Assembly: GCF_025602895.1 (NCBI RefSeq)
Contig: NW_026516285.1
Coordinates: forward strand, 148,071-212,070
Direction of reading: 5' to 3'
DNA length: 64,000 nt
Source: Polychytrium aggregatum
Lineage: Eukaryota; Chytridiomycota; Chytridiomycetes; Polychytriales
Made by a program: the position numbers and the translations under genes. Of the stretch, positions 1,901 through 59,079 are shown in pieces (position 1 is the first letter of the stretch; the number at the start of each line of letters is the position of its first letter). Under the pieces are notes generated by a model. It worked only from the letters and a program-made list of their open reading frames with translations. It ran no database searches and was not told the DNA's origin.

Positions 1901-3453
1901 GGCGAGCTGTTGCTGGCGGTATGCTTGGGTGCCGAGGAGAGTCGCAGACGAAGGTCCAAACAGCAGTCGCAGGGCCGAGACGAGGGCTGAGATGCAGGAC
2001 CGAGACGGTGGTCTGGGACGCAGGCCAAGGCAGCAAGGAGACAGGGCGGCTGCGGACGACGACCAGGCCAGAGCGGGTCATGAAGGGCAGATGAGGCCAG
2101 GAAGAAAAAAAGCGTGATGCGTTCTGTGCGTCTGTGCGGGCGGCGATTGGCTGAGCGGCTGGCTGTGTGGGCGATGAGAGCGACCAGGAGGAAATCGACG
2201 GACAGCCAGCAAGTAATTAACGGGCAACCAGCAAGTAATCAACAAGTAACCAACGGCCAACCAGCAAGTAATCAACAAGTAACCAACGGGCAACCAAGCA
2301 GCACACAGGGAACGGAAGGTGTCTGTGTCGATGCACATTTACTGCTGACTGCCGACACAGATCGACCGAAATCGCCATTGCACCGCCACAGCACCGCCAC
2401 AGATGTTCTGTGGGCACGGAACTGGCTGGAGCCGGCTGGGTGCCCTCACGTGGGGCGTGGCTTGGCCTGTCGCACGAAAAAAAAAAGATCGCCGAGCGAG
2501 AGCGGCAGCGAGGACGGGGCGAGAGCAGCCGAGGCGATGGCGAGACGAGGCGAGACGAGAGTCTGTCGAGAGCAGCCGAGAGCAGCAGCACACAGTGCAC
2601 AGCGAGAGCGGGGTGCAGCGAGGACCGCCTCGCACGCTCTCGCCGCCGTCTCGCTGTCGGCGCTGTGTCTCGGCGGCCTGTCTTTTCTGCCTCCGTTCTT
2701 GCGCTTCTTCTCTTTCTTCCTTCCTCCTCCGGTTTCCATTTGGCCTATTGCTCCCCGCGGTCGGAATATCTCCTCACAACTCGCAAAGGTACACCTGCGC
2801 CCCCTGCATCGGCAAGCTGCTGCGTTCGCGCACGGCGTGCTTGTGTGCATGTACAGACAGGCCCTGTCACATCGGGATGCTGTCGTCTGCGACACACGAC
2901 AGCTGGATGATTCGCTCGCGGAGTGCGGCTGTGGCTCCTGTCGAATGCGGGACCAAGGATGCAACGGACGCAAGCATTCATCGGTATCAATCCGATCGAT
3001 ACGGACTCGTGTGCTCAGTGAATCAGCGGCTTTGGACGACGATCCAGCATGGGACGCTGTGCCGGATGGCGGTGGGACGGCCCGAACGCCAGGATCGGTC
3101 CGTTGCTCTTTAACAAATGGATCTGTCCGTGGGAACAACACTGTCTCGGCATCAACACAGAGAAGCCACTCTCGGATGGATCCACGGCAGACGATTGCCT
3201 CCCGGACCCTGCAGCCGGTGCTGCCATAGGACATGGACTTTGGACGGCAAAGCTCTCTGTGCATTGACGGCTCCAGCCATCAGCAACGCCCACCCATGAC
3301 CTGCTCGAACAAGTCGTACCGATCCATGCCACAGCTGCACCGCGGATTCACTGTCGCTCTTTCAATTTCGATTCGTTTACCCCCCCCGGCGGCAATCCTG
3401 ACTACGAGTGCCACCTCACGACGCTGACCGTATCCGCCCCCTGGTGTTCGCAG
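1901..3453. other. Intergenic region between divergent carrier and eL28 genes
   Basis: This is the shared upstream region of two divergently transcribed genes. It holds a direct repeat (2223-2291), CT-rich stretches near 2690-2740 and a poly-C run near 3382. Several overlapping open frames occur on both strands, but their translations are low-complexity and resemble no family I recognise. I see no convincing gene here. Confidence 0.5.
2223..2291. repeat. Direct repeat, two copies of about 35 bp
   Basis: A unit beginning CAACCAGCAAGTAATCAACA and continuing to CCAACGG is present twice head to tail, with a partial third copy on the left that starts near 2208. It lies in the upstream region of the eL28 and carrier genes. 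Confidence 0.8.
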
Positions 3454-9048: not shown

Positions 9049-9356
9049 ACGAGGAGCTCCAGAAAGAAATGGGACACCTTGGTTGTTGGTCATTGACCGA
9101 GTATTTTGTTACCGGATACCATCGCACGCTGGCCATGGCCATTCGCCAGTGTGTCCAAGAGCACCATTCACCGCTGGCACTCCGAGACCAGTGTGCAGGT
9201 CGATTGTGGAGACCGGCAGCGGCCCAATGTCTTCACCCGGAGGCTGCCAAAGTGATTTGATTTTTTCTTATGGCTTTGCTTGACGCAAGCACATCACATA
9301 CTACATGTTCATGGAAGCGGGTGTGGTGTCCCGTTTTTTTTTCTGAATAGAGCGTA
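9049..9356 (+). mobile_element. Fanzor/Tc1-mariner deletion derivative, 308 bp, with terminal inverted repeats
   Basis: The left end (9049-9076) has CTCCAGAAAGAAATGGGACA and the right end (9328-9356) shows the inverted complement of TATTCAGAAAAAAAACGGGA, next to TA. Inside, ATGGCCATTCGCCAG (from 9134) matches the transposase start in the 23.4-24.5 kb element. It is followed by VSKSTIHRWH from that transposase's helix-turn-helix, then directly by the Fanzor tail VCRSIVETG. One base is missing relative to the other copy before NVFTRRLPK and a stop. The 3' tail after the stop matches the other element closely. It is non-coding now but structurally MITE-like. Confidence 0.88.
9258..9327 (+). ncRNA. 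Candidate Fanzor guide-RNA (omega RNA) scaffold, 3' tail of element
   Basis: This stretch lies between the Fanzor stop and the right inverted repeat and is conserved with the 23.4-kb element although the two coding parts differ. It contains a perfect hairpin TGCTTG-ACG-CAAGCA at 9277-9291. In known Fanzor and TnpB systems the guide RNA comes from the 3' end of the gene and runs to the element end. The assignment is by position and structure only, with no expression evidence. Confidence 0.4.
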
Positions 9357-23300: not shown

Positions 23301-23443
23301 AGTATCAGTGGAGTACCGATGGTGCAGATGAGCCTGGCTCCGAGTGGGTGGCTCCTGGCGAACAGCTTAATGCAGACGACGTCAAGAAGCAGAATGCATT
23401 GTATGGCTATACACTTTATTCAGAAAAAAACGGGACAATATAG
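20319..23443 (+). CDS. Kanadaptin (SLC4A1AP) homologue, stop codon altered by a mobile element
   Basis: Nuclear FHA-domain protein. The N-terminus carries YTEPSW and the FHA domain follows over four exons (20319-20601, 20759-20796, 20901-20943, 21050-21145): YFEILKNGTIVG, GRLPICDIELEHP, SVSRYHAIIQF, YIYDLGSAHKTFVNKIEVP. The exon from 21244 has MVRFGQSSRAFFFQGP, the kanadaptin-typical WGFPEDAVEEDDEDE and a dsRNA-binding-like segment (SRKALKNWADNRG ... ASKKKDAEREAALDAC). Then come FYDRTG, coiled-coil exons (SLSEKRLDVLAKISNLETQL; ALDDYMAQIQAKAE) and the conserved tail WVAPGEQLNADDVKKQNALY. The intron 21146-21243 starts with GC instead of GT. The last eleven codons and the stop at 23441-23443 come from the inserted Fanzor element. 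Confidence 0.9.
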
Positions 23444-23509
23444 CCGTTTCCATGAACATGTAGTATGTGCTGTGCTTGCGTCAAGCAAAGCCACAAGAAA
23501 TAAAACAGA
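23438..23509 (-). ncRNA. Candidate Fanzor guide-RNA (omega RNA) scaffold, 3' tail of element
   Basis: Non-coding tail between the Fanzor stop and the right inverted repeat. It carries the hairpin TGCTTG-ACG-CAAGCA (23473-23487, read on the minus strand) inside a longer imperfect stem (GTGGC/GCAC flanks). The same hairpin and flanking bases recur in the 9.3-kb element. Position and conservation match omega-RNA scaffolds of known Fanzors. Expression is unknown. Confidence 0.42.
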
Positions 23510-23862
23510 TCACTTTGGCAGCCTCCGAGTGAAGACCGCCGGTCGCTCTCCGATCTCCACAATCGACCTGCATACTGTGATCATGTTGCGCGCCGCATTG
23601 ACGTCGCGATTCCACACTGTCCGGCAGCTGGGATTCTTGCAGCTCCTGACAAAGTGGGAATTCGCAACACTGGGCGCATCGAGTCCTTCCAACCGAACTG
23701 GCTCCCGGCACTTGGAGCACACCTGCGAGGTGTTGAACTCGTTCGTCGAGACTACCTTGACGCTTCCATGATGGTGATTGGGACGGCGGCGGTGGTGCTC
23801 GAATTGCTCAAAGTACCGAGCAAACCGCTGCCTCCGAGGGCTGGATGCATAGCCCTTAGTAC
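23510..23862 (-). pseudogene. Fanzor C-terminal fragment (zinc finger and RuvC-III)
   Basis: Open frame reading KGYASSPRRQRFARYFEQFE, then STNEFNTSQVCSKC, SHFVRSCKNPSCRTVWNRDV and NAARNMITVCRSIVEIG, ending RRLPK-stop at 23510. The CxxC...CxxxC pair is the TnpB/Fanzor zinc finger. NRDVNAARN is the RuvC-III motif with its catalytic Asp, and TSQVCS...R is the usual lead-in. All of the recognition lobe, RuvC-I and RuvC-II are absent. Compared with the 33-kb copy, roughly 60 per cent of residues look alike, so this is a different subfamily. Confidence 0.9.
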
Positions 23863-24437
23863 ATGCGATGCAGCACACCAGAGTGGTTGATGGCAAATGC
23901 AGCCGAGACAGACTTGTGTTTCATGTGATTGCGCTGGCGAAGCGGAGCACCCTTCGGTGAGTATCCGTAAAGAGGGAAAATGGATCTCCTGATCCCCGTC
24001 TCATCGACAAAAACGAATCACCGCGGGTCGATGGAGCGGACCTGGTCCCTGAACTGTGCCACTCGCTCATCCAGTCGCTTGGACTTGTTGAGGTGTGTTG
24101 CTCTCTTGTGAGAGAGACCTGCTCGGTGGATGGCAGTGTGGCAGAGTGAGAGTGATACTTTCCTCTGGAGGATGGACTCGAGCTTGCATCGCAACACAGG
24201 ACCAGTCTGGAACGGGTCCTGTTCAATCAGGGTGCGAATGACTGGACATGCCTGCTCGAAGAAAGTGGATCTGCGAGCTGGGACCCGGGATGGGTCATCC
24301 AGCTTGCATCCTCGGTGCCATCGATGGATGGTGCTCTTGGATACACTGAATATGGAGGCGACCTTACGCAGGCTATGGATGAGGGCGTAGCATCGCAATG
24401 CGGCGGTGCGAAAGTCGGATGTGTGGCGAATGGTCAT
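23863..24437 (-). pseudogene. Tc1/mariner (IS630-type DDE) transposase, truncated
   Basis: Starts MTIRHTSDFRTAALRCYALI and contains a helix-turn-helix (LRKVASIFSVSKSTIHRWHR) followed by a second DNA-binding segment (PVIRTLIEQDPFQTGPVLRC). The frame reaches DPR and then TGA near 24018. The same frame goes on with FVFVDETGIRRSIFPLYGYS, PKGAPLRQRNHMKHKS and AAFAINHSGVLHRM, which is the first catalytic Asp region of DDE_3 transposases. At about 23862 the sequence switches to Fanzor. The second Asp and final Asp/Glu are missing. One in-frame stop plus the deletion make it non-functional. Confidence 0.88.
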
Positions 24438-24900
24438 GGCCAGCGCGCGATAACATTGGGTAACAAAATATTCGATGAATGGTCAAAAACCCGGGTGTCC
24501 CGTTTTTTATTGGATTGCCTATAACTAGTTGGTCGTTTGGCCCGAGACCGGCCCGAGACTCGGCCACAGCGCAACACGGTGTCCATTGATGCACGCCGGG
24601 TCGTCCGCGCCGATTCTATATGCAATGGTTACCCGCATTCTTGTCGATGCACATGCGTCGGAGAACCCGAGCAAACGGAGCCTGCTCTCACTTCCCTGCG
24701 CACAGAGTCGGTGATGAGTTGCTGGGCTGGACTGGCTGTGGCGCTGGTTGTGCCACAGCAGCGGTGCTCACATGACCAAGAAGGCTGCGCTCTGTTCCCA
24801 GAGCCAGCACCCAAATCGGCACCGCTTGACACCGATCGCATCCGCTCTGGATCGGAAGTGTGTCTCCTGATCGCCAGACTCCCGACAGCGGCAGAGAAAA

Positions 24901-32288: not shown

Positions 32289-33173
32289 GTTTCGGTCCTG
32301 GGATCTTCCAAAGACACCAACGACCATGCATCCGGCGATGGGGGCGATGGGGGGGCCGATGCGAGCCGCATGTGTATGATGGGGACAGCGCAATGGCCGT
32401 GCGCGAATGCGGCCGATCAAGGGCTGACTGTTAATAGAGCATATCGCAAGTACGGACGGCTCTGGTCCCATATGGCGATGCTCTCGCTCGGCAAGACTGG
32501 CCACCTACGACATTGCTGTGCTGGATCGGGCGGGATGATCAGATTGTGCATTGGCCTTCTGCAGCCGCGGCTCGCAATGGCATCTGGAGAACCGAGACGG
32601 CCATGCTCGCTCCTCGCTCCTCGCTCGCGTCTCGTCACGCCGCATGTCACATGACTCGCCGGCCGTCCCGGTTTCTGTTCCGCCAACATCGAGAATCGCA
32701 CTATCAATTTTTTACCGGCCCCTCGCGGCTGCTCATCTCGGTCACCTGAAAGTCACGTTGTATGTGGCGCAGCAAAATTGGAATCCGGCCATGGTCGGTT
32801 GACGGCATTTGGTATCGCCTTGAGCCGATTGACAGTGGTGGTGGGCGATTGGTGTGGAGGAATGACCAATTGTATCATTGTTGGAAGCTCCACTCCGATT
32901 GCGGACAAGAACCACCACCATCTGAATCTCTCTGGTTGGAAACCTAGTCAAGCGTGGCTGTGTGTCAGCGAGATGACATGATCGTTCGGCTATCAGGCAA
33001 GACTCTCCTTGACAAGATGTCTTCCCACGACTGATTGAGCGAGCGATGCGTTTCTGGATCCGAATCAAGGACGCCACTGCGCAGTATCTCTGCCAGCCCA
33101 AAATGCGCTGGTTTTGAGGAGATTCTTTCTTCCCCAAGGGCAGAACCAGCCATCGTCGCTATTTTCTCGCACT

Positions 33174-33900
33174 GATGGCTCCCCGCAAGCGAAAGACACC
33201 ACCCAGGCGACCAAGTGGATCCAGAGCACCCACAAGATCCTTGGTCTGCAGGAATGGATGAGCACCACACCGAGCCCCAAGAACCCTGGGTTGGCTTCCT
33301 TCTTGCGATATATTCGCCATGTGTTCGATGGAGACATGCTGGAGAAACAGCTGTACTTCAGCCTGACCCGGCGACGGCGATTCAAGCGACTGGATCTCCA
33401 CAGCAAGCGACAGCGCACCGTCCACGAGATGTGCAAGCAAGTCATCGACCAGGCACCAAGGGAGACCGAAGTGGTGATTGCCTTTGGGAATGCATCCTGG
33501 AAACAGGGGAAGGGATATGCATCCGTCCCAGGAGACTCAGGTTTGCCAAGCACTTTGAGCAGTTCCACCACCACCAGAGACGACCACCAAACCGATCCGT
33601 CTCCAAGATCCATGTGTGCTCGGTGAACGAGTTCAACACATCCCAGGTGTGCTCACATTGCCGGGAATTCAAGCGACTTGAGTCACCCGAGTATCTTGAT
33701 ATCGAGAAACCACACTTTGTCCGGAGCTGTGCAAGCTGCCATACGCTGTGGGATCGAGACATCAATGCAGCCAGGAACATGATCTCGGTATGCCAGTCGA
33801 TCATCGCCACAGGAGATCGACCGGATGTATTCAAGACCATGCTTCCCAAACCAACCAAAACCACTCGATTGCCAACGAAGACGGGAAACAATCACATGGC
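33174..33900 (+). pseudogene. Fanzor nuclease gene with N-terminal deletion and frameshift
   Basis: The start region MAPRKRK (33174) is joined by an out-of-frame deletion of roughly 1.8 kb to TTQATKWIQSTHKILGLQEW, so the recognition lobe and RuvC-I are gone. The rest continues SFLRYIRHVFDGDMLEKQLY, TVHEMCKQVIDQAPRETEVV and IAFGNASWKQGKGYAS (RuvC-II region). A one-base loss near 33518 shifts frame. Then RLRFAKHFEQFHHHQRRP, VNEFNTSQVCSHC, PHFVRSCASCHTLWDRDI and NAARNMISVCQSIIATG follow, giving an intact zinc finger (CxxC...CxxC) and RuvC-III (DRDINAARN). No stop occurs at the usual place and the frame would run on through the element end. Confidence 0.9.
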
Positions 33901-33960
33901 CTGCCCGCTGGGCCTACAAGTCAGTCAGCGGGCATCTGAAGCCAGAAAGGGGAAGTGTCC
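33890..33960 (+). ncRNA. Candidate Fanzor guide-RNA (omega RNA) scaffold hairpin
   Basis: A perfect stem TGCCCGCTG (33903-33911) pairs with CAGCGGGCA (33927-33935) around a 15-nt loop, a few bases before the right inverted repeat. A second inverted pair, CCAGAAAG (33943-33950) and CTTTCTGG (33966-33973), overlaps that repeat. The place corresponds to the conserved hairpin tail of the 9.3- and 23.4-kb elements. The sequence differs, as expected for another subfamily. The assignment rests on position and structure only. Confidence 0.4.
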
Positions 33961-34110
33961 CGTTTCTTTCTGGATAGACTGTAAGTATCTCGCACTGTTC
34001 CTTGAGTATTTCGACAGTGGATGCCGGGTCGCCCATATTCTGGGCAGTCCACTTCGGGGTTGCCATCCCTCTTGGGATGGTCGATGGGAGGTGTTTGACT
34101 CCCTTGTGCA

Positions 34111-41574: not shown

Positions 41575-43247
41575 ATGGGCCGAACGAAGAATAAAGCCAA
41601 GGTCAGGAAGGCCATCGAGGAGCACCAAGCGAATGCTGCCAAACGTCGCAAGCTTGCAGAAGCCGCAGCGGCCCTCGTTTCAGCCGACCCCCCAGAGCCA
41701 AAGGGGCCGGGCGATAGCCCTTGCGATGCTATCGACTGCCCAGCCACCGATAGTGAAGTTGTTGGCACCGATCTATTGGAGATCGAAGGCGAAAGCACAA
41801 GTGGCTCGGAACCACCGCCCTCTGTCCCCGCAGTTTCTTGGGCGATCAAGTGGACGGCAGGGACGAAGCACCCAAAAAAGTCAGCCTATACCGGTCTCTC
41901 GTACCAAACAGGGGCCGCAAACTGAACCTGGCCCGGAAAGCCCTCCAGGTCCACGAATCGCCGTTGATCGACAGCTATATGTACCGCCCAGCCGACAATC
42001 AACCAGAAACCGAGACGGCACTGGATGAGGCCCCAACCGCTCAGAGCGATGATGATGATGACGACGAAGCGCTGTTTACCCAAGAACATATGAACGCCGC
42101 CATTTCCTCTCTTCAAGCCATCCTCAAGCCCAAAATCACAAGCGAGAGAGACGGAGACCTCTCAGCCCACGACGTAAAGCGACACAGATGTATCCTGAGT
42201 TATCTCCAAGCCAAGAGTGAAGGACAAATCAACAGCGACGCTTCCCTCTGTAAGGACTTGGAAGGAGCCTTATGGTCAGCACCTTCCTCTGCGAGTGTCA
42301 TGGGCTGTTGAAGCACCCTGACTTGGGAGATTCAACAACGATAATTTATCCTGGAAGAGGAAATTGGTGGAGAAGCAATGATATGGCAACGCAGCTGGAG
42401 AGCAAGGCCATCCCTATATTTGAAAAGCTCCATCCTGGGTGTGTGGCATTATTTCAGTTTGACAACGCCTCAAATCACAAGTCATTTGCACCCGACGCGC
42501 TTCGGGCCTCAAATATGTCCAAGAAACCAGGCAAAGCGAATCCGAAACTACGGAAGACGACTTATGGCCCCTTTGACACTCCTCAGGAGATGCAGTTTAC
42601 CAAAGATGATGAAGAAAATGGATTCGAGGTAGGAATCACTTGTGATGATAGAATGACATGCTCGAGCTAACACTCTGTACCAACTGATTTTGCAGTTCCT
42701 AGGCGTGAAGGCCAAAGCTGGACAGCAGAAAGGACTCGAATTGATACTCAGAGAGCGCCATCTTTGGCCTCCAGCAGGTCTTGTGAGGAAATGCAGCGCA
42801 GCCTCCGAGGCTGCAATCAAAAGTATCGACGCAACAGGCATAGCATGTTGCGCCGTCCATCTCTTGGATGCACAGCCAGATTTCCGAGCGCAGACACCGA
42901 TTCTTCAAGGCATAATCGAGAGACACGGGCACAAACTCATCTACCTCCCGAAATTTCATCCGGAACTCAACTTTATTGAAAGATTTTGGGGTGCATTGAA
43001 ACAGAGGACTCGTGCTCGATGCGACTACACCTTCCAGGGACTACAACACACGGTCCAAGAAGCCCTCTATGAGATCCCGCTGGTGACCATCAGGAAATAC
43101 GCCAGAGTATCATGGGAGTACATGAAGCTTTATCGCCATAATATTCCGATTGACATCATCGAGTCGACCAGGAAGATTTACAAGTCTCACCAGAGTGGCA
43201 ATGCCTCGGTGGCAGGGGACGGGCTGGGAAGGGAGGCGATTGAATAA
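41575..43247 (+). pseudogene. DDE-superfamily transposase (fungal mariner-like), internally deleted
   Basis: Begins MGRTKNKAKVRKAIEEHQAN. A frame change near 41920 is followed by GRKLNLARKALQ and an acidic stretch to about 42280. A block is then missing, including the first catalytic Asp (usually in a FHDEST-like motif). It resumes STFLCECHGLLKHPDLGD, IPIFEKLHPGCVALFQFDNA (second Asp) and MSKKPGKANPKLRK. A good intron (42629-42695) joins NGFE to FLGVKAKAGQQKGLE. The tail has HGHKLIYLPKFHPELNFIER-FWGALK (third acidic residue) and stops at 43247. The pattern is that of a DDE transposase widespread in fungi. It is unlike the HTH transposase at 24 kb. Confidence 0.85.
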
Positions 43248-43847
43248 ACCAGGAGGTCTAAATCGGCTCGAATTGGTTCGAATTTATGACTCATCGTGAT
43301 GCATCATGACTCACTGGTGGCTGAAGGAAAATTGAGTGATATTTGGGTTGGTCAAGGACAAGCTGCATTGCACCATATAAATTTTTTCCGGCCCCTCGCG
43401 GCTGCTCATCTCGAATATGAATACACGCTGTAGACCAAGATGCAGCAAAAGTTGGAATCCGGCCATGGTCGGTTGACGGCATTTGGTATCGCCTTGAGCC
43501 GATTGACAGTGGTGGTGGGCGATTGGTGTGGAGGAATGACCAATTGTATCATTGTTGGAAGCTCCACTCCGATTGCGGACAAGAACCACCACCATCTGAA
43601 TCTCTCTGGTTGGAAACCTAGTCAAGCGTGGCTGTGTGTCAGCGAGATGACATGATCGTTTGGCTATCAGGCAAGACTCACCTTGACAAGATGTCTTCCC
43701 ACGACTGATTGAGCGAGCGATGCGTTTCTGGATCCGAATCAAGGACGCCACTGCGCAGTATCTCTGCCAGCCCAAAATGCGCTGGTTTTGAGGAGATTCT
43801 TTCTTCCCCAAGGGCAGAACCAGCCATCGCTGCTATTTTCTCGCCAG

Positions 43848-45980
43848 ATGGCTCCCAAGAGAAAGACACCCCCCGACCCCGACCCAGGATCACCCAATGA
43901 CTCTCATGTGGCCAAGAAACCCGTCATCAAATCGTGTCGTGCCTGTGGCCTGACCAACCATGTCAGACCCTTCACCAAGAAGTGCACAGCCAGAGTCGAC
44001 AGCAGCCCTGCCTCTGGCTCTGCCTCGGTCGCTGAAATGGTCAGCCAAGCACCCCTTCCAGACGAGCCCAGTGACGACACTGCCTTCCCAGCCCTCGTGG
44101 TCGAGATTCCCGCACCCAAGGTCCCTGTATGTGCCACGTGCAAGCAAGAGGGTCATGCCAGAAGCAACACCCCAAAGTGCCGTTTCTATAAGCCACTCTG
44201 GAGCTCTACCTTGCCTGACTGTGGCCCAAACGAGCAAGTCAAGGCCGACTACTCCACCGTCAAGTGCACTCTGGACGCCATCATCAAGAACGATGCCTTG
44301 CACGACAAGATCGAGGAGACTGTCCGGGCCATGACTCATGTGCAGTACGAAGCATCTCGTCTCCTGGAGCTGCATCTCAGGCGATGCTTGGACGAGGGCA
44401 TCACCCTCCCCACCGTGTCGTCGAGTGAACCCGCGTTTGTTCGAAAGTGTTTCAATATGGTACAGACAGGAACAGTGGGTGCCAGGACAAACACCCCGGA
44501 AGATGACAGGCACCTCCTCGACACATATGAGATGTATCGACGTGCATGGGGAAAGTCGTGTATCCTGCCTCCAGTGTCCCTCCCAAAGGGCACTGGCTCG
44601 CAGGTTCTCGCATTGGCTGTCAAGACCTATGCAGTCAACTGCGAGACCCACGTTCTCGATCGGTATTGGTTCCTTCTACACCGATACTGCAATCTGGTCC
44701 TGGTTGCTCCCAAGGGTGTGAAACGGCACACACACGTCGATGAGTGCATGAAGCTGATGGAGAATCCCCGATCCAAGACACTCCTCGGTGATCTGAGAAA
44801 ATCCTTCGCCCACCATGCCGACCAGTTGTATGAGTTTCGGTACGAAAGCCACCAGGACCTGTACAAAGTCGTACCAATTCTGGCCAGTGAGGTCTCTCGC
44901 CTGACCCACCTGAAGGAGGCCCTCTTCATGGTGGTCTTTCAGAAGATGATCATTCCCAGGCTCGCGAGGGTGACCGATGATCTGAAAGGAGAGCGTGGAC
45001 GACTGAACGAGGAAATGTGTCAACCCATCCACCACATCGGGGCTGACAGACTCAAAGATCTCCAGACCCAGCACGAGGAGGTGTGCAAGCAGATCGCTGT
45101 CAACACGAAGCGGATCAAGCGCCTCACCGATCGACTTGCCCAGACCAAGAAGCGCCTCAACATCCCTCGAGCACAGTGCACTTTGGTCCCTCTCTGCGAT
45201 GCCCGAGCCAAGTACATCAAGCTCGACACCAGAGCATTGTGGGAAATCCTTGGATACCAGACTGGCACTGGTCTCAAGTGGGACGACCTGAAGACCAAGG
45301 TCAACGACACCACAAAGCAAGAGACCTTCTGGCAGACCAACTTCAAGCTGGATCCGAGACTCTTTGGTGCCAGGAAGGAGGGGAAGCAGCTCTTTGGCTG
45401 CGAGATCAGCACCGATGGGGTCGGGTGCTCGATCACCACGCTCAGATACAAGATCCTGAAGAAGGATCCTGATGCCAAGCCAAAAACCGAGCACAAGACA
45501 CCCAAGCTCACCCCCGAGCAGAAGATCCAGACCAGAGTCGGTCCCATTGACGACTCTCGGACCACATGGATCGGGATCGACCCTGGAGTGGGATCGATCT
45601 TCACCGCTGTCATTCGGGCACCCGGTCAACCATCCATCCAGGAGCAAGATGGTGTCAAGGTGACCAAGGCACAGCGTGCCAACGAGAAGATCGTGTCGTT
45701 CTCCAACAAGGAGTACCAGCATCGATGTGGCACCACCCAAGCGACCAGGTGGATCCAGAGCACCCACAAGATCCTTGGTCTGCAGAAATGGATGAGCACC
45801 ACACCAAGTCCCAAGATCCCTGGGTTGGCTTCCTTCCTGCAATACATTCGCCATGTGTTCGATGGAGACATGCTGGACAAACAGCTGTACTTCAGCCTGA
45901 CTCGGCAACGGCGAGTCAAGCGACTCGAGAAGGTCGTGTATCTTGATATCGATACACCATGGAGCTGTCCAGAGGGTTGA
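43848..45980 (+). CDS. Fanzor (TnpB-like RNA-guided nuclease family), 710 aa, lacking C-terminal catalytic part
   Basis: Starts MAPKRKTPPDPDPGS (ATG 43848). Two zinc-knuckle-like motifs follow, CRACGLTNHVRPFTKKC (residue 30 on) and CATCKQEGHARSNTPKC (residue 95 on). A long helical recognition region includes a coiled coil (KQIAVNTKRIKRLTDRLAQT). Then LFGARKEGKQLFGCEISTDG leads to RuvC-I, TWIGIDPGVGSIFTAV, with catalytic Asp at about residue 578, and FSNKEYQHRCGTTQATRWIQ. Compared with the 33-kb copy, about 300 bp are missing after RRVKRLE. This removes the RuvC-II region and first zinc-finger pair, and the frame ends VVYLDIDTPWSCPEG-stop. Working Fanzors are guided to DNA by a 3'-encoded RNA. 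This product should bind but probably not cut. A 5'-leader intron is possible (cag before ATG). Confidence 0.92.
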   Translation: MAPKRKTPPDPDPGSPNDSHVAKKPVIKSCRACGLTNHVRPFTKKCTARVDSSPASGSASVAEMVSQAPLPDEPSDDTAFPALVVEIPAPKVPVCATCKQEGHARSNTPKCRFYKPLWSSTLPDCGPNEQVKADYSTVKCTLDAIIKNDALHDKIEETVRAMTHVQYEASRLLELHLRRCLDEGITLPTVSSSEPAFVRKCFNMVQTGTVGARTNTPEDDRHLLDTYEMYRRAWGKSCILPPVSLPKGTGSQVLALAVKTYAVNCETHVLDRYWFLLHRYCNLVLVAPKGVKRHTHVDECMKLMENPRSKTLLGDLRKSFAHHADQLYEFRYESHQDLYKVVPILASEVSRLTHLKEALFMVVFQKMIIPRLARVTDDLKGERGRLNEEMCQPIHHIGADRLKDLQTQHEEVCKQIAVNTKRIKRLTDRLAQTKKRLNIPRAQCTLVPLCDARAKYIKLDTRALWEILGYQTGTGLKWDDLKTKVNDTTKQETFWQTNFKLDPRLFGARKEGKQLFGCEISTDGVGCSITTLRYKILKKDPDAKPKTEHKTPKLTPEQKIQTRVGPIDDSRTTWIGIDPGVGSIFTAVIRAPGQPSIQEQDGVKVTKAQRANEKIVSFSNKEYQHRCGTTQATRWIQSTHKILGLQKWMSTTPSPKIPGLASFLQYIRHVFDGDMLDKQLYFSLTRQRRVKRLEKVVYLDIDTPWSCPEG

Positions 45981-46110
45981 GCGGATGCACCACATTCACA
46001 TCGAGGGGATGCACCACACTCCCACACCGACACATCAATATCAGTCGATCGTCGCCACAGGGGATTGACCAGATGTATTCAACTCTGTGCTTCCAGAACC
46101 CACAAGCAGT
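45938..46110 (+). pseudogene. Broken C-terminal remains of the 43-kb Fanzor
   Basis: After the deletion junction the DNA still matches the 33-kb copy in pieces: YLDID (for YLDIEK) and WSC (for RSCASC), an interrupted stretch with a repeated GGATGCACCACA motif, then QSIVATGD, a TGA in place of the CGA codon, PDVFNSVLPEPTSSG. The RuvC-III motif (DRDINAARN) itself is not readable. These codons are no longer in one frame. Confidence 0.75.
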
Positions 46111-46149
46111 GGTTGATGTGGAGAGCATTCAGGTGCGCCACTGTCCGGT

Positions 46150-46312
46150 TTCGAATGGGCTGCAATCCTGCCCGAGGACACAGCGGCTGGCTCGGTACTT
46201 TGAGCTGTCCGAGTGGAGAAGGGCGCGAATGTTGAGGATCCAGACGATGGCCGTTGGTCTCAACAAAATCTCTGATGTCTCGATTTGCGAGTGCTTCAGT
46301 ATCGCTGGATAG
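46150..46312 (+). pseudogene. Additional Fanzor fragment (region between RuvC-II and zinc finger)
   Basis: Reads GLQSCPRTQRLARYFELSEW followed by RRARMLRIQ, aligning with KGYASSPRRQRFARYFEQFE-HHRRRPN of the 23.5-kb copy. At DNA level CGGTACTTTGAG is shared exactly. The downstream frame no longer resembles Fanzor and stops at 46310-46312. It belongs to the 23-kb subfamily, not that of the copy just upstream, so it represents a separate insertion. Confidence 0.7.
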
Positions 46313-57145: not shown

Positions 57146-57428
57146 AGACCGTGCACTCTGCTCTTGGCGTGCCGGAGCATGCCGCGGGCGAGTCTATCGA
57201 GCTCTGTCCTTTTGATCAGTGTCTCTGTCCCAAGTTCCAGACCATGCACGGTGCAATGCAGTCGACGCATTTGTGGGGGGCCTCCCGGACTCGCCGCACC
57301 TGCCACACTGCTTCTTGTGCCTCTCGCCCTGTTGTGTATTTCTTGATGTGTCCGCTTCTATCCTCGCCGCCTGTGTATTGAGGGAGGTTTGATTGGCGAT
57401 TCACCTCGATATCTCAGTAATATCTCTT

Positions 57429-59079
57429 CTATGTTGTAAAGATAAAGCGAAAGCAAGGTGATTTGCCTCTATCTTCAGTATGTCCAAGAGCGCCATGTGT
57501 CGCTGGATCAGGGGATGCCAGACAACTTTCGTTGGACAGGCGTGCCCAGTCATTCGCACCCTGACCAACCAGTACCTCGCAGGTGTGCTCCAAGTGTCTG
57601 GGGGCTCTCTCGACTGAGGGATCTGGATGCACCCAGCGTTGCTCATTTCCACTTTGCCAGGGGCGAGCCGTACGAAACCCAGCTGCCGGAAAGGGTGAAA
57701 TTGCAATGTCAATGCGGCGCGCAACACGATCACAGCGTGCAGGTCGATTGTGGGACCGGAGAGCGACCCACCCACGGTCATCACTCCGAGATGAATTGCA
57801 TATCGCTCTGTTGGACTCATTCGCATCACAGACTACATGCTTATCCGAAATGGGGCATCTGGTTTGATGCCAGGATTGCCACTCTGTCTGGGTCGCGAAT
57901 ACACATCCATCGTGACCAAGCGTCTCACGCTGCCCGGGGGCCCAGTGGCTCGCTTGGTCCGACTTGCAAGCAAAGCTCTCATGTCCATCGGCTTTGGAGA
58001 ACGGTGCTCGCGGATGGAACAGCAGCAGCCGCTGCTCACACCGCATCACATCACGTTGCAGGAGAGCTTGGTTGACACTTCGATTGTTGTGCCGTCTTCG
58101 TCCGTTCTGGAGATCTGTGGCCGCCCGGTGCCAGTGAGAACGATGCAACTGTGGGGTGAGTTTGATGCAGCAGCACCAAAGAGTACCGGCGGGGACGTTC
58201 GTGCAGCCCAACCATGTGCTGCAATAGCTACAGTACTTACGGTTTTGCTGACACTTGTTCTTGCCACCCGTTGGTCTTTTGCGATAAGAGAAGGAAGCGG
58301 CCGAGACTTGACAAGGTGAGCCAGGTCGAAGACCTGCATATATGCGTCTGCGATGGCGCTGCGATACTGCTCGGTGTTGGAGGAGTTGACTTGGAGCCCC
58401 TGAATGGCAAAGATCATGCGCATGGTTTCGCGAATGGTGCGCTGTTTGGGGCTCTCTGGGTGCTGGTGCAATTCGTCTGGAAAGCGATCCAGCTGGAACA
58501 ACGAAAACGGCTGGATAGAGCCTGAGCTCGGGTCTTCGGTGGCGAGGAGCAGGGGCATGATCCGAGCCTGGCCCTGCTGCTGGAGCTCGACGGCCCACTC
58601 CCACTAGCACGGCCGGCCGACGGCAAGGGCATGAAGATTAGCATGGGAGTGAGGGTGAGCAGCAGGAAAGACGAGCCTGGCCAGTGCTGCTGGAGGCCAT
58701 CCAGCAAACCCACCTCCAGGAACATGTTGTCGCGGGTCGAGTTGATCCCGACGAGGGCATCGGGACTGATGACCAGGATGATGAGCTTGGAGGTCTTGAG
58801 GGCCGCCAGGAAGCTGTCTTCCCAGAGAGTGCCGCCAACGAGACAATACTTGTCGAAGAAGATGTGCGGCAGCAGGGAAATGTGCTCCGGCCCGAGCCCC
58901 AGTTTCTTCAGGAACCAGACGGACTGCAGATACGGTGCGAGCTTCTCGACAAAGCTGCTGTCGCTGGAGACGCGGTAGGAGATGAAGACCGGATGCTGGT
59001 CGTAGCCGAGGGGACACTTGACTGGCGTCGCAGGGGGAACGGCGCTTTGGCCGGAAGAGGGGTCGGCGTCGATGCTCAT
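57429..59079 (-). CDS. TIR-domain protein
   Basis: Exon 1 (58714-59079) starts MSIDADPSSGQSAVPPATPV and has the TIR core: HPVFISYRVSSDSSFVEKL (residue 29 on), HIFFDKYCLVGGTLWEDSFL and KLIILVISPDALVGI, ending RDNMFLE. Exon 2 (58241-58603) begins WEWAVELQQQGQARIMPLLL, restoring the LEWE motif where TIR NADases carry the catalytic Glu. It goes on with QLDRFPDELHQHPESPKQRT and a helical tail to SVSKT, at a gtaagt donor. Both exons are in phase. Exon 3 would run 57429-58148 (total 482 aa) and cross the Fanzor relic in antisense. Without that splice the frame stops at 58046. TIR domains cleave NAD or scaffold signalling. Its role here is unknown. Confidence 0.82.
57450..57794 (+). mobile_element. 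Fanzor/Tc1-mariner relic
   Basis: Reads FASIFSMSKSAMCRWIRGC and QACPVIRTLTNQ, matching the transposase DNA-binding region of the 24-kb element (VASIFSVSKSTIHRWHRGC, QACPVIRTLIEQ). This is joined directly to Fanzor sequence: SQVCSKC, LRDLDAPSVAHFHFAR, then in shifted frames the remains of NAARNMITVCRSIV and ER. No inverted repeats were found at either end and several frameshifts are present, so it is older than the other copies. It lies in the 3' region of the TIR-domain gene, in antisense orientation to it. Confidence 0.82.

Follow-up and report, generated by a model that had tools for sequence, protein, structure and literature searches.

The 1110-bp unit at positions 23412-24521 of this Polychytrium aggregatum DNA is a deletion scar, a non-autonomous internal-deletion derivative (ghost) of a Tc1/mariner transposon carrying a Fanzor1 nuclease gene, and a comparison across many copies suggests a part for the Fanzor in determining at which sites such elements survive. 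The best explanation, which we consider probable, is that the unit derives by internal deletion from a two-gene transposon in which wRNA-guided Fanzor cutting would retain insertions at TTA, with ectopic repair swapping one form of the element for another. The window is the whole 64,000-nucleotide stretch analysed (contig NW_026516285.1, positions 148,071 to 212,070, forward strand), and feature coordinates are window positions.

Read along the minus strand, the unit opens with the 5' repeat and transposase residues 1-193; after the junction base come Fanzor residues 695-809, their stop codon and a 3' UTR of 98 nt, which takes in the 3' repeat. Its ends were set by comparison among copies, and the initial annotation, which had a transposase head joined to a Fanzor tail with TA on both sides, was right to the base. 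The unit comprises:
23412..24521, minus strand: whole element, ghost of the mariner-Fanzor1 transposon (end repeats, copy comparison)
24522..24523, no strand: TA target-site duplication (TSD), transposase-side (5') end (copy comparison)
24496..24521, minus strand: 5' terminal inverted repeat, whose first base is T instead of C in the window copy
23859..24437, minus strand: transposase head, residues 1-193, with a weak HTH match, the first catalytic D in VDETG and one in-frame stop
23858..23858, minus strand: deletion junction base, parent positions 663 and 3291, C or T by copy
23510..23857, minus strand: Fanzor tail, residues 695-809 (zinc finger, WNRD) and stop codon, in a frame unlike that of the transposase head
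23412..23437, minus strand: 3' terminal inverted repeat, also the 3' end of the candidate wRNA scaffold
23410..23411, no strand: TA target-site duplication, Fanzor-side (3') end (copy comparison)

The head matches residues 1-193 of a 310-aa transposase copy (97.9% identity, 24437-23859), and the tail matches Fanzor residues 695-809 (98.3%, 23857-23513). The HTH and first DDE motif first read in the head correspond to a DDE_3 match with the catalytic D in VDETG and a weak HTH match, but both fall below the Pfam cut-off (DDE_3 at 9e-5, 22.8 versus 28.6 bits); the Cas12f1-like TNB zinc finger on the tail lies above it (5e-11). "Matching" was too strong a word for the inverted repeats, whose 20-bp arms are 85% complementary but whose outer 12 bp are unlike between the two ends (CAGGCAATCCAA versus CACTTTATTCAG, as read in other copies). 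Since the two halves lie in different reading frames and an extra in-frame stop interrupts this copy, no fusion protein can come from 23412-24521; the fused form holds as two halves joined in one unit, and a protein fusion is ruled out. Splicing as the origin of the junction is also ruled out, since the borders do not read as an intron, and 16 occurrences at 94-100% identity exclude a chance origin.

These occurrences came from a query of the genome (64.7 Mb, 418 contigs) with the whole unit, which returned 16 full or near-full chimeras and then half-matches; the number of chimeras is at least 16, among the best 40 of 1443 candidates and with haplotypes counted separately. All 16 break at parent positions 663 and 3291-3293, and 13 have both ends (L016, L017 and L062 lack the first 49 bases). 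They share one common junction; a single clade is ruled out, since no site is diagnostic for them and parents fall among them. With the Fanzor half alone as query, at least 40 near-identical matches came back, and 26 parent loci were fetched, 20 of them through the Fanzor half and 6 through the transposase half. In 26 of 26, the transposase and then the Fanzor lie on the same strand within one unit, which bears out the proposals that Fanzor travels here in a mariner-type element and that the parent order was transposase, then Fanzor; the refuting case, two genes never in the same unit, did not arise (L048 holds both genes and lacks the 3' end). Full-length parents had been predicted at 4-5 kb; they exist, but at 3.4-3.8 kb. 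Setting aside L048 and L038, whose 5' end is divergent, the other 24 measure 3386-3770 bp. Among these, stop-to-stop frames reach at least 800 codons for the Fanzor in 16, at least 320 for the transposase in 7 and both in 3, in a sample biased to copies with a good Fanzor end. The pN/pS ratios, 0.25 for the Fanzor and 0.27 for the transposase, indicate that both have been under purifying selection. A profile of diversity along the parent was set aside, its alignment being poor and its sample biased.

The parent transposon is a Tc1/mariner element by its TA duplication (TA on both sides in 41 of 43 two-ended rows, the exceptions being L035 and L040), its DDE_3 domain (1.4e-24, above cut-off, in a parent copy, where HTH_23 at 0.0016 is below it) and its terminal inverted repeats. 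On sequence grounds, its cargo nuclease gene is a Fanzor1, by motifs, zinc finger and profile match. Fanzor1 proteins are defined, in the descriptions given in PMC3627910 and PMC10711439, by D...[TS][TS]xx-C4 zinc finger-...RD plus DPG and TDG motifs, and the 809-aa copy carries GIDPG, NTSQVC, WNRD and STDG, the last reading STNG in L067, one of seven aligned Fanzor rows. Its zinc finger is above the Pfam cut-off, and a profile of the Fanzor finds SpuFz1 (8gkh) at E 0.0018 and GtFz1 only at 0.076; a single-sequence search with the Fanzor found no characterised Fanzor1, and a scan for viral relatives found none.

Smaller derivatives are more numerous than the chimera. The 5' end is matched at 254 places genome-wide with at most one mismatch, and pairing 80 exact 5' ends (contigs up to C168, among 100 listed) with 100 listed exact 3' ends gave 53 pairs: 43 of 3.4-3.7 kb, 3 of 1110 bp and 7 of 279-380 bp. 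Six of the seven short copies were read and keep about the first 97 or 207 nt and the last 166 or 214 nt; a query with the 308-bp form returned at least 40 near-full copies, haplotypes counted separately. The whole Fanzor 3' UTR is kept in every two-ended derivative read, the six short copies and the chimeras, so that ghosts in the sense of copies keeping both ends and the wRNA region and losing the Fanzor gene include the six short copies and the 13 of 16 chimeras that are two-ended. As the independent deletions are few, retention of at least 166 nt at the 3' end says little about selection, which we do not claim. The useful features of the chimera family are this retained 3' end, with its candidate wRNA, and the flanking T described below, rather than the fusion.

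By analogy with other Fanzors, the 3' UTR is the expected guide-RNA (wRNA) locus, a candidate whose expression is presumed:
23410..23509, minus strand: candidate wRNA scaffold, Fanzor 3' UTR (98 nt, 3' repeat included) plus TSD, by its fold and its retention in six short copies and the chimeras
23390..23409, minus strand: expected guide, host DNA just past the TSD, of a length assumed from other Fanzors as described in PMC10432273

The window copy's 3' UTR plus TSD folds into a hairpin and a repeat stem-loop with a closing helix that includes the TSD (-24.2 kcal/mol, z -1.98), and the consensus fold of 23 F1-type variants (F1 being the Fanzor type of the parents) keeps hairpin, stem-loop and TSD closing helix. 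A TSD in the closing helix is among the features reported for Fanzor reRNAs (Yoon et al., PMC10711439). Two complete 3' UTRs of the F2 sister elements described below, with different letters, also fold with the TSD in the closing helix (z -1.43 and -2.15); the TSD is unpaired in an F2 derivative stretch (z -1.64), and z is -0.37 for an F1-type stretch ending short of the TSD and -0.11 for another stretch of other shape. Across the six folds z runs from -0.1 to -2.2, there is almost no covariation among the copies, which vary too little, and the modelled structures give the wRNA modest support.

A T precedes the 5' TA almost without exception:
24522..24524, minus strand: TTA (T plus TSD) lying ahead of the element's 5' end, a candidate target-adjacent motif of the Fanzor; T in 97 of 100 listed copies

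These 100 were listed out of 123 copies with an exact 5' end fitting the pattern, and exact matches with a base other than T number six genome-wide. Among distinct fetched sites, T is present at 38 of 40 (chimera 12/12, short 6/6, parent 20/22), and the two others, L035 and L040, have abnormal ends. Short copies without both genes have it in 13 of 14 (matched by eye, duplicates included). As background, T precedes 336 of 2460 TA sites in the window, both strands taken together (13.7%). The base after the 3' TA has no clear bias (C34 T24 G22 A20, in 100 listed of 221 exact 3' ends); A, the mirror of T, stands there in 20 of 100 against 13.7% expected (p = 0.08, not significant). When 24 joined flanks were searched in the genome, none had a spanning match among the best 40 of 295 candidates, and 11 of the 24 sites had a second contig whose flank match stopped at the junction, none of them empty; among fetched sequences no empty site was found either, the only row being the locus itself. 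The T rule is therefore read from filled sites, and the T before insertion is indirect. In Spizellomyces punctatus, a conserved CA upstream of the 5' repeat is described as corresponding to the SpuFz1 motif CATA, and the preference given there for GtFz1 is TTAAN (PMC10432273).

Ahead of the 5' junction of L035 (element at C112:990787) stands a second copy of the host bases found after its 3' TA. The two meet in about 7 shared bases, as if a break slightly beyond TTA had been joined through microhomology; C407:188922 reads the same and is probably the same event. This copy of guide-side host bases is possibly an aberrant repair product.

A second set of elements separates the two halves of the parent. 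L070-L073 have the same transposase region (1012 bp, 96-97%; protein 96-97%) and a different Fanzor, F2, which in L070 is 38.8% identical to the F1 Fanzor over 863 positions, and L075-L079 are also of F2 type (96-97% DNA identity for the transposase), L079 being the same site as L075. They were found through an altered-5'-end pattern with 52 matches, 28 of them with TACAG in place; these 28 are less strict as a group (T 18, A 5, C 4, G 1, haplotype duplicates included). The 11 TACAGCC rows were all read except C101, whose letters repeat C88; the first batch happened to be non-T, and the T rows came in the second. We dropped L074 (C88) as a different family, L080 and L081 (C before TA) because they match over the first 85 and 44 bases only, and, from the count of eight sites, L082 (T before TA), a short derivative whose tail is F2; the three copies that read TTGA where others have TA (C96, C127, C140) also lie outside it. 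In six of the seven fetched F2 3' ends, the F2 end is followed by TA; the seventh (L077) was not found, and L070 has no 3' end. A further 5' end variant has two genome matches, both beside F1-type 3' ends.

The base before TA at the eight distinct F2 sites is A, C, G, C, T, T, T and T. This 4/8 differs from the 97/100 of F1 (Fisher p = 4e-4; p = 7e-4 when L082 is added, 5/9; p = 1e-3 with the TTGA copies as one more T site, 6/10), and the difference is also seen against the 38/40 fetched F1 sites (p = 0.005 to 0.011), for the six F2 elements with both ends (3/6 T, p = 0.002) and, more narrowly, against the gene-less short copies (13/14; p = 0.04, weakening to 0.06 with L082 and 0.12 with the TTGA copies too). 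Since F2 elements share the transposase and yet half of their sites are without T, the T does not simply come with the transposase. From these sequence comparisons, which involve small numbers, the T rule appears to follow the F1 Fanzor/wRNA half, apparently even when the last 214 nt alone are present, as would be expected of a Fanzor target-adjacent motif. The F2 requirement may be weaker or different, T at 4/8 being above background (p = 0.016).

The strongest competing explanation traces the T before TA to target choice by the transposase, acting alone or together with the F1 3' repeat; on this view the Fanzor has no influence on the persistence of insertions, and the chimera is an ordinary non-autonomous mariner derivative. 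The unlike terminal 12 bp of the two ends make an orientation-specific contact possible, F2 elements differ from F1 in the 3' terminal repeat as well as in the Fanzor, so that the repeat could influence the transposase, and T is above background in F2. We nevertheless think it unlikely. F2 has the same transposase and nearly the same 5' end, the end that adjoins the T, yet 4/8 sites lack it; TA is palindromic, so that a bias of the transposase would generally be expected on either side, and A after the 3' TA stands at 20/100 (p = 0.08); and in S. punctatus the conserved CA ahead of the 5' repeat agrees with the CATA motif of the Fanzor, according to the description in PMC10432273.

Another account of why the chimera persists would make it a repressor, its truncated transposase, with the DNA-binding part and first catalytic residue, competing with the full transposase. 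KP elements of Drosophila are a comparable case of a repressor derivative. A 209-codon open frame from the transposase start is indeed present in 6 of 13 two-ended chimeras (L003, L006, L007, L008, L058, L061), but the other seven, the window copy included, stop earlier, and the 308-bp form, whose 5' part is down to 97 nt, outnumbers the chimera (at least 40 versus at least 16), and we give the repressor account a small chance.

Homologous separate contigs are read here as haplotypes, from agreement such as that of C124 with the window (99.9% and 99.6% for 1-kb samples taken at two places about 55 kb apart). The homologous site is known for 7 chimera sites (a count that leaves out L004 and L059-L061) and was not found for L003 and L057. 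The partner site also holds a chimera in 2 of the 7 (L001/L002; L016/L017, with L062 a third copy) and another form in 5: a parent in L006/L046, L007/L066, L008/L067 and L005/L069 (5' side only for the last), and a 310-bp copy in L058/L068. L006 and L046 go back to one insertion event, given two changes in the first five bases that are absent from other aligned copies. Pooled over the five heteromorphic sites, flanks differ at 4/2526 positions and shared element parts at 82/4262, a 12-fold excess (p = 1e-12). The parent pairs L028/L029 (51/3737 inside, 3/1892 outside) and L045/L049 (27/3755 inside, 0/342 outside) also differ within the element, and the same-form pair L001/L002 has no excess inside (4/1101 versus 6/3000, p = 0.47). 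Recurrent deletion at one programmed junction is disfavoured, as the shared parts are about 2% apart and the flanks 0.16%. The simplest account would be that element sites are repaired time and again with other copies as templates, as would follow excision (gap repair). The in-place swaps are not by themselves proof of homing, because the insertions look older than the haplotype split. Although high-copy repeats are prone to misassembly, it is quite improbable that the swaps are assembly artefacts, since colinear flanks lie on separate contigs (C124 versus the window, 99.9% and 99.6%), four heteromorphic sites share both flanks and L005/L069 the 5' side, the only side fetched, and some contigs exceed 1 Mb, which makes long reads likely.

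Two further flank patterns were observed. The parents L031 (C359:341566) and L036 (C359:360500-366200), about 23 kb apart, have more than 700 bp of 3' flank in common and different 5' flanks, as if recombined within the element. The chimeras L004 (C399:35612) and L060 (C384:73201) likewise have a common 3' flank and different 5' flanks.

In the mechanism we favour, the transposase would insert an element at TA. Where a T precedes the 5' TA, the element's own wRNA, a scaffold ending in the TSD with a guide copied from the adjacent host DNA, would have the Fanzor cut the empty site (TTA plus guide). After excision, or on an empty homologue, the cut site would be repaired by copying the element back, so that TTA insertions persist and others are lost; repair from an ectopic copy would account for parents, chimeras and short copies replacing one another at fixed sites. 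The unit at 23412-24521 encodes no complete protein but retains the two ends recognised by the transposase and the Fanzor 3' end, the expected source of the guide RNA; it would thus be moved in trans by the family transposase and served in trans by the family Fanzor. Expression of the wRNA, cleavage and homing are predictions of this scheme. Its strongest form, that the Fanzor decides which insertions survive, with the transposase supplying TA and the Fanzor the extra T, and gene-less ghosts equally retained and swapping interiors in place, we advance tentatively, judging the case for it nearly balanced by the case against.

IS200/IS605 elements belong to another transposase class, and their target doubles as the nuclease motif. 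There, the requirements of transposase and nuclease are inseparable, whereas in F1/F2 elements they are separable. The likeness of the favoured scheme to IS200/IS605 TnpB with its wRNA, and to plasmid gene drive by TnpB (PMC11870625), is that a nuclease with a flank-derived guide cuts element-less sites and so retains the element.

Mariner elements, Fanzor1 and their union are already known: Bao and Jurka 2013 (PMC3627910) describe the mariner-Fanzor1 elements PUl-1 and PGv-1, which carry both genes, and the Fanzor-only PUl-4, so the remark that Fanzors had been reported in mariner elements agrees with print. As in P. aggregatum, those elements have a mariner transposase and a Fanzor1 in one TA-flanked unit, and related elements share the transposase half and differ in 3' cargo; PGv-1 and three relatives are, by contrast, described as single-copy, and the account of these elements in PMC3627910 describes no flanking-base rule, cargo-swap test or transposase-Fanzor deletion family. 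The Spu-1 and 'ghost' Spu-1 loci of S. punctatus (SpuFz1; Saito et al. 2023, PMC10432273) are described as having a Fanzor1 between inverted repeats, many gene-less copies that keep the repeats and wRNA region, and, ahead of the 5' repeat, conserved bases in agreement with the Fanzor motif CATA. The description of Spu-1 has no transposase found inside its repeats, whereas the P. aggregatum parent carries its own; here, moreover, the flanking rule is TTA, and the ghosts are traceable deletions, one of them fused to a transposase head. New here are the T rule, its F1/F2 Fanzor-linked separation and the in-place replacement at chimera sites; among open-licence papers we found no printed report of such a flanking test.

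The biological role of Fanzor is stated to be unknown in PMC10432273. One P. aggregatum genome pairs one transposase with two Fanzors, in more than 200 copies with gene-less derivatives and two haplotypes, and with the F1/F2 pairing, sequence comparison can distinguish a flanking rule imposed by the nuclease from a preference of the transposase. If the reading is true, the F1/F2 cargo swap would be a natural experiment and would argue that Fanzor acts in vivo to retain elements. The comparison yields a bench prediction, a TTA motif for the F1 Fanzor, and shows one origin of ghost elements, internal deletions that keep the guide-RNA end.

The window holds other members and remnants of the two families:
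9063..9353, plus strand: second, older ghost, transposase-head pieces plus the Fanzor 3' end/wRNA region
57408..57791, plus strand: decayed derivative, transposase-head joined to Fanzor-tail pieces
32986..33982, plus strand: derivative of the F2 sister element that keeps the transposase end, the F2 Fanzor tail and the 3' end
43663..45977, plus strand: decayed F2 element, 730-codon F2 Fanzor frame without the C-terminal catalytic part

The first F2 sample, L063-L065, was a composite repeat and unusable for ends. F2 Fanzor tails (window 32986-34000 and 43380-46205; L063-L065) lie inside a larger repeat: in the window copy and the three copies read, the common sequence runs on past the 3' end. 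An F2 derivative thus seems to spread as part of a composite unit. The frame at window 42481-43250 resembles, judged by eye, a remnant of another DDE-type transposase. CAGCG stands right after TA at the 3' flank of L032 and at C1:962893, C50:44640, C76:43053 and C112:1045632; in L032 and C76 it is the 5' end of another family member, and insertions next to element ends may be common.
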